From Burkholderiaceae bacterium (GTDB lineage Bacteria; Pseudomonadota; Gammaproteobacteria; Burkholderiales; Burkholderiaceae_C): a DNA stretch of 64,000 nucleotides. The notes beneath the pieces were generated by a model. The model was not told the DNA's origin. It ran no database searches and saw nothing but the letters and a program-made list of their open reading frames with translations. Positions 59,683 to 63,211 of this stretch are shown piece after piece (within the stretch, counting starts at the first letter, position 1; each line of letters begins with the position of its first letter). The translations under genes were made by a program, and so were the position numbers. Location: contig JAFALA010000046.1 of assembly GCA_019234815.1 (NCBI GenBank), forward strand, positions 1-64,000. The letters are read 5' to 3'.

Positions 59683-60021
59683 ATGAAACCAGTTTTTCAA
59701 AATGCCAGTGCCCTGGCCGCTGCCGCCCTGGTGGCCTTGAGCCTGAGCGCCTGCGTGGTGGTGCCGGCACAACCGGCCTACTACAGCACCGGTCCCGTAG
59801 TGGCCGTGGCCCCGCCCGCGCCGCAAGTGGAGGTGGTGGGCGTACCTCCGATCGTCGGCCAGATCTGGATTGGCGGTTTCTGGGGCTGGGAGAGCGGCCG
59901 CCATGTCTGGCACGGCGGCCATTGGGACAATCCGCGCCCCGGCTATCACTGGGTGCCGCACAACTGGGTGCACGAAGGCAACGGTTGGCGCCTGCATGAA
60001 GGGCATTGGGATCGTCACTGA
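59683..60021 (+). CDS. Small YXWGW-type lipoprotein
   Basis: 112 residues. The lipobox LSLSAC at about residue 24 predicts a lipoprotein. After a Pro-rich spacer comes a Trp/His/Gly-rich repeat: IGGFWGWESGRHVWHGGHWDNPRPGYHWVPHNWVHEGNGWRLHEGHWDRH, four W-x-x-GHW-like units. Such proteins are common in proteobacteria and have no firm function. A related gene remnant lies at 39482-39614. A terminator follows. Confidence 0.85.
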   Translation: MKPVFQNASALAAAALVALSLSACVVVPAQPAYYSTGPVVAVAPPAPQVEVVGVPPIVGQIWIGGFWGWESGRHVWHGGHWDNPRPGYHWVPHNWVHEGNGWRLHEGHWDRH

Positions 60022-60040
60022 CCCTGGTCCAAGCCTTGCA

Positions 60041-60077
60041 AGCCCCGTCGAATCATCATTTCGACGGGGCTTTTTTT
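60041..60077 (+). terminator. Rho-independent terminator of the YXWGW lipoprotein gene
   Basis: Perfect 12-bp stem AGCCCCGTCGAA (60041-60052) and TTCGACGGGGCT (60060-60071), 7-base loop, then TTTTTTC. It lies 20 bp past the stop codon. Confidence 0.92.
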
Positions 60078-60132
60078 CATATGGCCTCGAGCATCCGGCC
60101 TGAACATGTCAAACTTTCGGCCCTTGCCTCAC

Positions 60133-60164
60133 GCTTGCGGACCCCCTAATTTCCGCCCGCAAGC
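60133..60164 (+). promoter_or_regulatory. Hairpin at the start of the QueD-like gene
   Basis: GCTTGCGG (60133-60140) pairs perfectly with CCGCAAGC (60157-60164), which ends one base before the ATG at 60165. The stem would hide the initiation region. The loop contains ACCCCCTAA. It lacks the A-rich tail expected of a class I preQ1 riboswitch, so I only call it a possible translational control hairpin. Confidence 0.4.
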
Positions 60165-61283
60165 ATGCTCGACACCATGAACACTTCGACCTTGCACACC
60201 GCGTCCTGCGGATTTGAATCGGCCTGCCAGATCAGCGCCCTGCCCATCGCGCACCGCAGCCATGGCTTGCATGGCCACAGCTATTTTGCGACGGTGCGGG
60301 CCGATCTGCCGCCCGATTGGGTGCCATTTCCCGGCGCCGAGGTTGAAACGCTCAAGGAACGCCTGGCGGCCTGCGTGGCGCCGCTGGATCACGCGCTGTT
60401 GAACCGGCATATCCACGAGCCCACCGACGAAAACATCGCGCGCTGGATACGCCAGCGCCTGGAAACCGAGTTCGATGTACCCGGCATCCAGCAGATCGGC
60501 ATCCAGAGCACGGCGCATTCCGGCGTCGACCTGGACGTGCACGGCCAGGCCCATGTCTGGCGCCGCTACCGTTTCCAGGCCGCGCACCAGTTGCCCAACG
60601 TCCCCCCGGGCCACAAGTGCGGGCGCATGCACGGCCACGGTTTCGAGGTCATTGTGCATGCCAACCAGGACCTGGGTGCACGCGACCTCAGCATCGACTA
60701 CGACCACCTCGACGCGCTTTGGGCGCCGTTTCACGCCCAGCTCAATTACCGCTGCCTGAACGAACTGGAGGGTTTGAGCAACCCGACCAGCGAAGTGATC
60801 TCTTCCTGGCTGTGGGCGCGCCTCAAGCCGCAGCTGCCCGAGCTGTCATGGATCACCGTCTATGAAACCGGCTCCTGCGGCGCCAATTTCGACGGCCGGC
60901 ACTACCGCATCTGGAAGGAAATGACACTGGACAGCGCCATCCGCCTGCATCGCGCGCCAACAGGCAGTCCCTTGAACGGCATCCATGGCCATACCTACAC
61001 CCTGCGGCTGCATCTGAGCGCCGAGCTCGATGCCCTGATGGGCTGGACCGTGGACTTTGGCGAAGTGAAAACCTTGTTCGATCCTATTTTCAAGTCGATT
61101 GACCACCGGCCCCTGTACGAAATCGCCGACCTGCCCGACGGCGACACGGCCTCGCTGAGCGCCTGGGTGCTGGCCAAGGGCCGCGCCGTGCTGCCGCCGC
61201 TGGATCGCGTCGACATGTACGAAACCCGCGGATCGGGCGCCATCGTCAGCGCGTCCGGCACCGACGACTTGATTCCCGTCTGA
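60165..61283 (+). CDS. Triple-domain 6-pyruvoyl/6-carboxy-tetrahydropterin synthase-like protein (QueD family)
   Basis: 372 residues made of three tandem PTPS-fold domains (about 14-124, 133-249 and 252-362). Normal QueD is one such domain of about 120. Domain 2 has a full zinc site (His141, His156, His158) and the catalytic Cys152 in HKCGRMHGH. Domains 1 and 3 keep only the HGH pair (36-38, 274-276) and have Ser32 or Leu270 at the Cys site. Conversely the Asp-His pair is present in domains 1 (75-76) and 3 (313-314) but is Asn-Tyr in 2. Lies 19 bp before queE, so the queuosine (7-deazaguanine) pathway is likely. ATG 60177 is an alternative start. Confidence 0.88.
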   Translation: MLDTMNTSTLHTASCGFESACQISALPIAHRSHGLHGHSYFATVRADLPPDWVPFPGAEVETLKERLAACVAPLDHALLNRHIHEPTDENIARWIRQRLETEFDVPGIQQIGIQSTAHSGVDLDVHGQAHVWRRYRFQAAHQLPNVPPGHKCGRMHGHGFEVIVHANQDLGARDLSIDYDHLDALWAPFHAQLNYRCLNELEGLSNPTSEVISSWLWARLKPQLPELSWITVYETGSCGANFDGRHYRIWKEMTLDSAIRLHRAPTGSPLNGIHGHTYTLRLHLSAELDALMGWTVDFGEVKTLFDPIFKSIDHRPLYEIADLPDGDTASLSAWVLAKGRAVLPPLDRVDMYETRGSGAIVSASGTDDLIPV

Positions 61284-61302
61284 CCCACTGTCCGACCCCG
61301 CC

Positions 61303-61950
61303 ATGAGCTACGCCGTCAAAGAAATCTTCTACACCTTGCAGGGCGAGGGTGCGCAAGCCGGCCGCGCGGCCGTGTTCTGCCGATTTGCGGGCTGCAATCT
61401 CTGGAGCGGCCGCGAAGAAGACCGCGCCCAGGCCGTCTGCAATTTCTGCGACACCGATTTCGTCGGCACCGACGGGCAGGGCGGCGGCAAGTTCAAGACC
61501 GCCGAAGATCTGGCCAACGCCATCGCGGCAAAGTGGCCGTCGCCGGCCGGCACGCAAGCGTCTGGCAGGCCCTACGTCGTTTGCACAGGCGGTGAGCCGC
61601 TGCTGCAAGTCGACGAAGCCTTGATCACCGCGCTGCACGCCAGGGACTTCGAGATCGCTGTGGAAACCAATGGCACGCAAGCTGCGCCCGAGGGGCTGGA
61701 CTGGATCTGCGTCAGCCCCAAGGCCGATGCCGAAGTCGTGCTGACCCGCGGCCATGAGCTCAAGCTGGTGTACCCGCAGCCGCTTGCCCAGCCCGAGCGC
61801 TTTGCCGGCCTGGACTTCCAGCACTTCTTCCTCCAGCCCATGGACTCGGTGCTGAAAGCCGAACATACGCGTGCTGCCATCCACTACTGCATGACGCATC
61901 CGCAATGGCGTCTGTCCGTGCAGATGCACAAGGTGGTCGGCATCGAGTGA
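61303..61950 (+). CDS. queE: 7-carboxy-7-deazaguanine synthase (radical SAM)
   Basis: 215 residues. Converts 6-carboxytetrahydropterin to 7-carboxy-7-deazaguanine. The iron-sulfur Cys motif in AGCNLWSGREEDRAQAVCNFC has CX14CX2C spacing, the variant known from Burkholderia QueE instead of CX3CX2C. The substrate-binding start YTLQGEGAQAGRAAVFCRF and the SAM motif VVCTGGEPLLQ are both clear. Follows the QueD-like gene closely, so they are probably one operon. Confidence 0.95.
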   Translation: MSYAVKEIFYTLQGEGAQAGRAAVFCRFAGCNLWSGREEDRAQAVCNFCDTDFVGTDGQGGGKFKTAEDLANAIAAKWPSPAGTQASGRPYVVCTGGEPLLQVDEALITALHARDFEIAVETNGTQAAPEGLDWICVSPKADAEVVLTRGHELKLVYPQPLAQPERFAGLDFQHFFLQPMDSVLKAEHTRAAIHYCMTHPQWRLSVQMHKVVGIE

Positions 61951-61954
61951 GGCG

Positions 61955-63211
61955 TCAAGCCTTGTCGAACGCGGCCTGCAGCTGGTCCATGTCGAGGTCG
62001 CCGGTCCATTTGGCGACCACCAGAGTGGCCACGCCATTGCCGATCAGATTGGTCAGGGCGCGCGCTTCGCTCATGAACCGGTCAATGCCCAGAATCAAGG
62101 CCAGGCCCTCGACCGGCACATGGCCGACCGCGCTCAATGAGGCGGCCAGCACGATGAAGCCGCTGCCCGTGACGCCTGCCGCGCCCTTGGACGTCAAGAG
62201 CAGCACCGCCAGCAGCGTCAGCTGCTGCGTCAGGGACATCGGCGTGTTGGTGGCCTGCGCGATGAACACGGCAGCAATCGTCAGGTAAATGGACGTGCCG
62301 TCCAGGTTGAAGGAATAGCCGGTTGGAATCACCAGGCCGACCGTGGACTTGCGGGCGCCGGCCAATTCCAGCTTGCTCATGATGCGCGGCAGCACCGACT
62401 CGGACGACGAGGTGCCCAGCACGATCAGCAGCTCTTCGCGGATGTACTTGAGGTACTTCAGGATAGAAAAGCCATGCAGGCGTGCAATCGAACCCAGCAC
62501 GACGAGAATGAAAATCAGACAGGTCAGGTAGAAGCAGAACATCACCGAACCGAGCTGCACCAGCGAACCCAGCCCGAACTTCCCGATCGTGAAGGCCATG
62601 GCGCCAAAGGCGCCCAAGGGCGCCAGCTTCATGATGTAGCCCACGATCACGAACAAGACCTGTGAGAGCTTTTCGATCAGATCGAAGACCAGGGTGCCCC
62701 GGCCGCCAAAACGGTGCAAGGCAAAACCGAACAGGGTCGCAATCAACAGCACCTGCAGCATCTCGCCCTTGGCAAAGGCGTCGACCAGGGTGTTGGGAAT
62801 GATGGCCATCAGGAAATCAAGTGTGCCCTGCATCTTCCCCGGACCCACATAGGCATCCAGGCCCTTTGTGTTCAGGGCTGCCGGATCGACATTCATGCCC
62901 ACGCCAGGTCGCATCAGATTGACGACCACCAGGCCAATCACCAGCGCAAGCGAGGAGACGATTTCAAAATACAGCAGGGCAAGACCGCCGGTCTTGCCGA
63001 CCTTCTTCATGTCTTCCATGCCGGCGATGCCCACCACCACGGTGCAGAAGATGATGGGCGCAATCATCATTTTGATCAGCTTGATGAAGGCATCGCCCAG
63101 CGGCTTCATGGCCGCACCGGTATCGGGATGGAAATGCCCCAGCAGCACGCCAATCACGATGGCCGTGATCACCTGCACATAAAGGGACTTGAACAAGGTT
63201 CTGATTGCCAT
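61955..63211 (-). CDS. dctA: C4-dicarboxylate transporter (DctA type)
   Basis: 418 residues, DAACS family symporter of succinate, fumarate and malate. [28 protein letters not shown] at the start, the serine-rich loop [14 protein letters not shown], the binding motif [25 protein letters not shown] and [17 protein letters not shown] are family hallmarks. ATG 63211 (MAIRT) or 63223 (MIRDMAIRT) is the start; longer readings extend into the AT-rich upstream DNA. Convergent with queE. Confidence 0.94.

Follow-up and report, generated by a model that had tools for sequence, protein, structure and literature searches.

QueD is the 6-carboxytetrahydropterin synthase of the queuosine pathway and forms its product from dihydroneopterin triphosphate. 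In an ordinary QueD site the zinc, the cysteine and the anchoring glutamate are provided by one subunit and an Asp-His pair by another. The triad of PTPS is termed intersubunit in the title of a 1995 paper by Burgisser, which is cited in PMC7546909 and PMC2229834. The window analysed here, a stretch of 64,000 nucleotides from a Burkholderiaceae bacterium (assembly GCA_019234815.1, contig JAFALA010000046.1), contains a queD gene with three tandem PTPS domains in a single chain, none of which carries all of these residues. This raises the question whether the chain may nevertheless assemble an active site, and from which of its domains.

The queD gene and its genomic context

The open reading frame at 60165..61283 on the forward strand yielded a translation of 372 amino acids with the first stop only at its end. 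Pfam PF01242 matched it in three PTPS stretches with an E-value of 1.3e-51, and the QueD equivalog profile of NCBIfam, TIGR03367, scored the three-domain protein with 146 bits, above the cut-off of 89.25. The three stretches and a residue check of the translation confirmed the original prediction of three tandem PTPS/QueD domains with unevenly shared catalytic residues. The true start of queD is possibly at 60177 (Met5), because this column carried a Met in 11 of 20 homologue rows.

The next gene is queE (61303..61950, same strand), which lies directly downstream of queD and scored 367.2 bits with TIGR04508, 7-carboxy-7-deazaguanine synthase, at a cut-off of 240. A PF01242 search of the window's genome, an assembly of 125 contigs with 94.94% completeness and 5.04% contamination, gave three matches, all inside 60165-61283. 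A second PTPS or QueD gene was not detected in this search, a missed gene being possible at the given completeness. Because the frame holds the sole PTPS matches of the genome, passes the QueD cut-off and adjoins queE, it appears to be the only QueD of the organism. One TGT above its cut-off was found in the same genome. The QueC frame is located on another contig and runs to the end of its locus. Because only part of it is present on that contig, the fragment remained below both cut-offs (138.4 versus 150.3 bits and 155.4 versus 378 bits).

Upstream of queD a hairpin followed by a T run was noted at 60041-60083, which by its sequence is probably the terminator of the small open reading frame at 59683-60021. 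A preQ1 riboswitch in front of queD was dismissed, as the only match of a cmscan of 59700-62100 with E-values up to 1 scored below the gathering score and fell on this hairpin. A mobile origin was rejected as well: tblastn matched 181 plasmid and 4 phage records, and in no record was 80% or more of the query covered at a single site.

Division of the catalytic residues among the domains

Predicted secondary structure, domain alignment and conservation placed domain 1 at about residues 7-125 (60183..60539), domain 2 at about 129-245 (60549..60899) and domain 3 at about 247-363 (60903..61253), all on the forward strand. Residues were compared with those of E. coli QueD, in which Cys27, Asp70, His71 and Glu110 are the catalytic and anchoring residues. 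Domain 2 possesses His141 at the first zinc ligand position (60585..60587), Cys152 at the catalytic Cys position (60618..60620), the zinc ligand positions of His156-Gly157-His158 (60630..60638), Pro207-Thr208-Ser209-Glu210 (60783..60794) and Glu234 at the position of the anchoring Glu (60864..60866). Where QueD has Asp-His it carries Asn194-Tyr195 (60744..60749). Thus the claim that domain 2 combines the zinc triad and Cys152 with a loss of the Asp-His pair could be read directly in the translation and the domain alignment. Domains 1 and 3 have retained the pair as Asp75-His76 (60387..60392) and Asp313-His314 (61101..61106), as had been predicted, and lack the Cys, which is replaced by Ser32 and Leu270, respectively; the first zinc position is occupied by Cys21 and Ile259. 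Present are also His36 and His38 in domain 1 and, in domain 3, His274, His276 and Trp294 to Asp297 (61044..61055). The anchoring Glu was correctly assigned to domain 2 (Glu234) and domain 3 (Glu353), while the Gln proposed for domain 1 did not hold up: in the domain alignment Gln114 is equivalent to Lys109 of E. coli QueD, so the anchoring position is that of Ser115.

Conservation was analysed in 172 distinct three-domain proteins, down to 34% identity, which are related to one another and do not represent 172 independent trials. The sources were 60 relatives (9 genomes besides the bacterium's own), named genomes (the best 80 of 336) and an order survey. They provided 154 open reading frames, which came down to 144 distinct proteins once identical sequences were counted singly; class and phylum surveys added 28. 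Counted frames were open across about 300 profile positions in the set of 144 and about 290 in the set of 172; broken copies were excluded. Of the 64 match rows of the order survey, those of G317, of G415 (two pieces) and of G353 (partial) were left out. The single domain of L113 was set aside as partial and a domain 3 remnant (L016) was not counted.

Invariant in 172 of 172 proteins were His36 and His38 of domain 1, His141, Cys152, His156, His158, Thr208, Glu210, Glu234 and Thr235 of domain 2, and Trp294, Asp297, Lys302, Asp313 and His314 of domain 3. A complete Asp-His pair was found in domain 1 of 57, in domain 2 of 18 and in domain 3 of all 172 proteins, Asp313-His314 being the only invariant pair. 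The Cys position of domain 1 (32) was a Cys in 2 of 172; Asp75 was kept in 149, and position 76 was His in 58 and Tyr in 108. Domain 2 had Asp at 194 in 26 and His at 195 in 57 proteins. Domain 3 had a His at the first zinc position in none and Glu353 in 142. The three losses of the window protein, namely of the Cys at 32, of the Asp-His pair in domain 2 and of any His or Cys at the first zinc position of domain 3, were shared by 153 of the 172, and the trio Cys21-His36-His38 of domain 1 occurred in 78 (the window protein and 77 others). The search for homologues of the same pattern thus found the division of residues between domains in every one of the 172 proteins. Because the residues of domains 2 and 3 are universal in this set and the same three losses recur in 153 members, the division is more than chance.

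A position test was carried out with 48 invariant positions common to 8 single-domain QueDs (E. coli and 7 others). These were 8 of the 14 single-domain rows of the tree described below; the six omitted were L239, which nearly duplicates L238, and five rows in which Arg occupies the first zinc position. The test was scored on 58 triple representatives below 70% identity, and a position was considered kept at 95% or more. Seventeen positions were kept only in domain 2, seven only in domain 3 and none only in domain 1; five were kept in all three domains, one in domains 1 and 2, and 18 in none. The seven positions specific to domain 3 are Lys8, Trp51, Asp54, Pro64, Asp70, His71 and Pro101 (E. 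coli numbers). Domains 2 and 3 divide the canonical QueD set into complementary halves, as a putative single composite site would predict. In a quick tree of 149 domains, in which 65 of 146 inner branches were open, domains 1, 2 and 3 and the single-domain rows each fell on one side of a branch with SH-aLRT values of 100, 85, 99 and 88. This topology fits one presumed triplication.

The triple profile matched 62 of 399 genomes in the order survey at E <= 1e-50, distributed over 15 family labels (among them G353 and G415, partial or split). Of the 369 genomes sampled from the class, 19 matched at E <= 1e-40, and 17 of these do not belong to the order. The phylum sample had 18 matches in 398 genomes; 11 were outside the class (two family labels), 3 had already been counted and 4 were single-domain (G967, G999, G1007 and G1100). 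Thus the triple form of QueD extends beyond the order and the class. Named carriers among the matches listed include Roseateles, Paucibacter, Pelomonas, Sphaerotilus, Rhizobacter and Ideonella. With full-length three-domain homologues being this widespread, decay or an assembly artefact was ruled out.

QueE was matched in 139 of the 172 homologue loci. In 138 of these it followed queD on the same strand, the median gap between the queD end and the beginning of the QueE match being 4.5 bases. A QueC match was present in 59 loci, 58 times upstream on the same strand. Neither gene was matched in 19 loci, seven of which are 6.5 kb or longer; hence the queC-queD-queE operon is common, not universal, among triple-QueD loci. 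Genome G137 contained two triple QueDs (L148/L196 and L197), one locus with a QueE match and one with a QueC match. Genome G050 contained a triple QueD together with a single-domain PTPS with CxxxHGH (L198, L012), and there was no QueE or QueC match in either locus.

Relatives without a full-length triple QueD (L017-L022, L024-L030) had a single-domain PTPS homologue with an SRRIHGH-type motif and without the catalytic Cys; a QueE match was present in 12 of these 13 loci. Two of these proteins that were scanned scored 74.9 and 83.9 bits, below the QueD cut-off of 89.25. The single-domain QueDs of L121, L124, L132, L133 and L137 (family label f44) carried an Arg at the position of the first zinc His and kept CxxxHGH, and that of L132 scored 94.6 bits, above the cut-off. 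L016:1501-1767 was a remnant that matched domain 3 only (residues 284-372, 49% identity); domains 1 and 2 had no convincing match in this locus. The genome concerned (G032) also had a Cys-less PTPS that adjoined a QueE match (L030).

The proposed composite site

The three-domain protein was modelled by AlphaFold2 on a 21-row alignment with a mean pLDDT of 87.7 and a pTM of 0.88. The model showed three consecutive strand-strand-helix-helix-strand-strand units. Its domain 2 was superimposed on E. coli QueD (4ntk_E) with Z 11.9 and an rmsd of 1.3 over 119 residues. Two-domain uricases aligned to model residues 7-245, i.e. domains 1-2 (5ayj_D; Z 11.6, rmsd 4.5, 217 residues), and to 126-372 (7f2v_A; Z 11.1, rmsd 4.6, 214 residues). 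Coupling analysis yielded 1.79, 1.13 and 0.77 for the cyclic strand pairs b4(Dn)-b1(Dn+1) and 0.58, 0.54 and 0.33 for the other three pairs. With an effective number of 75, no null distribution and the strongest single pairs looking phylogenetic, these values are at most a hint that the ring may be closed by domain 3 on domain 1.

We consider it highly probable that the QueD of this organism is an old triple T-fold fusion with one complete site per chain, composed of the zinc and Cys152 of domain 2 and Asp313-His314 of domain 3. Three T-fold copies would have been fused head to tail long ago, and one chain would make up a ring of three subunits. The copies would then have become unequal: domain 2 would have kept the zinc-Cys-PTSE-Glu half of the site and domain 3 the half with Trp-Asp and Asp-His, and domain 1, having lost most of both halves, would mainly be a scaffold. 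The zinc and Cys152 of domain 2 would meet Asp313-His314 of domain 3 within a chain or between two chains. From this we infer an active enzyme with a closed ring, in which one chain stands for a trimer and two chains pair up in place of the hexamer, with two sites instead of six. A covalent pseudo-trimer with one composite site, as put forward in the original prediction, is the best reading of the data, with the complementary residues of domains 2 and 3 each in 172 of 172 homologues.

Which pair serves Cys152 was left open by the wording of the original prediction, which allowed the domain 2 site to be completed from domain 1. Asp75-His76 is indeed present in the window protein, and Asp75 is frequently kept. 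Yet only 57 of 172 proteins have both residues of the domain 1 pair, while in domain 2 the zinc ligands and Cys152 are invariant. We therefore judged domain 1 an unlikely partner and give this pairing very little credence. Because Asp-His is found in domain 3 of all 172 proteins versus domain 1 of 57, conservation supports the domain 3 pair, not that of domain 1, as the putative partner of Cys152. In a sub-case of the composite site the Asp-His pair of domain 3 in one chain would complete the domain 2 site of another; a pair of chains would then have two sites, and a chain on its own would have none. We regard this arrangement as rather unlikely, with no result of this study counting against it, and the residue conservation would be explained equally well. 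It would also be in line with an excerpt of PMC7546909, in which PTPS enzymes are described as a head-to-head pair of trimers whose sites lie between three monomers.

The view that domain 2 alone is the enzyme, with domains 1 and 3 as dead passengers and a catalysis that dispenses with the Asp-His pair, could invoke the 17 of 48 canonical positions kept only there and its best alignment to solved QueDs. The invariance of Trp294, Asp297, Lys302, Asp313 and His314 down to 34% identity is, however, unlike a dead domain 3 and makes this view highly improbable. A further alternative is a protein that makes another pterin product instead of 6-carboxytetrahydropterin or only binds pterin. PTPS relatives with altered motifs do catalyse other reactions, as stated in an excerpt of PMC5041015, but domain 2 carries the CxxxHGH given there for PTPS-I, the QueD score is above cut-off, queE directly follows queD in 138 of 172 loci and the genome gave no other PTPS match. 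We thus consider a different product most unlikely.

Some points count against the composite site of domains 2 and 3 as explained above. Glu353 would not be expected to be kept in 142 of 172 homologues in a domain without the Cys and the first zinc ligand. The loss of Asp-His is incomplete, the pair being retained in domain 2 of 18 and domain 1 of 57 homologues. The 19 loci without a queE or queC match, the co-occurrence of a triple form and a single-domain PTPS in G050 and the sub-threshold score of the QueC fragment likewise count against it. Furthermore, His36 and His38 of domain 1 are invariant although a scaffold would have no obvious use for them, which would speak against a mere scaffold role. 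Cys21-His36-His38 could form a second metal site, so one metal per chain is not certain. Because domain 1 has lost the catalytic set yet kept His36 and His38 in all homologues, it is conceivable, albeit improbable, that the fusion gave it a new job, i.e. binding of a second, non-catalytic metal or a docking face for QueE or QueC, resulting in an asymmetric QueD that passes its product on.

Comparison with known systems

An excerpt of PMC5041015 lists the motifs CxxxHGH for PTPS-I, CxxxxxHGH for PTPS-II and ExxHGH for PTPS-III. Domain 2 reads CGRMHGH and has CxxxHGH and the three-His zinc site of QueD in one domain, with the named Cys and His residues in 172 of 172 homologues. It matches neither the biopterin-type motif of PTPS-II nor the folate-type motif of PTPS-III, having Gly153 at the position of the Glu. 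The Asp-His pair of QueD is present in domain 3 and absent from the Cys-bearing domain 2 of the window protein. Nor does the protein belong to the two-domain tandem T-fold class (uricase, QueF, FolE2), as it has three domains, each matching PF01242. QueD has one domain per chain; hence the three-domain QueD with a divided site is a variant of the known enzyme, not a plain member.

The matches listed from the open-licence literature included no paper on a three-domain QueD, by which its absence from print is not established. Taken together, the triple QueD provides a natural example of a symmetric homotrimer that would have been converted into a single chain, with the active site then divided between its copies, and this form is fixed in at least two bacterial classes. 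Because each half of the site can be mutated alone, it lends itself directly to experiments on the subunit origin of individual residues in PTPS-type enzymes. For annotation it carries a warning: a plain QueD label hides the three-domain architecture, and if only domain 1 or domain 3 were checked for motifs, the gene would be taken for an inactive one.

With the single-domain homohexamers of QueD/PTPS-I (E. coli 4NTK, P. aeruginosa 2OBA) the protein shares the T-fold and, over the whole chain, the zinc triad, CxxxHGH, PTSE, the anchoring Glu and Asp-His; queE likewise is a neighbour in most loci. It differs in its three unequal domains with the residues split over domains 2 and 3, which leaves one complete set per chain versus three per trimer. 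Urate oxidase, QueF of the two-domain type and GTP cyclohydrolase IB also have T-fold repeats in one chain. However, those enzymes have two domains and another chemistry, so the resemblance is one of fold. The monomeric herpesvirus dUTPases are thought to be derived from trimeric ones by fusion of a homotrimer into one polypeptide, in which only one site was left. The triple QueD would be the result of the same kind of fusion from a homotrimer to one chain with a single site, in an enzyme of unrelated fold and reaction.
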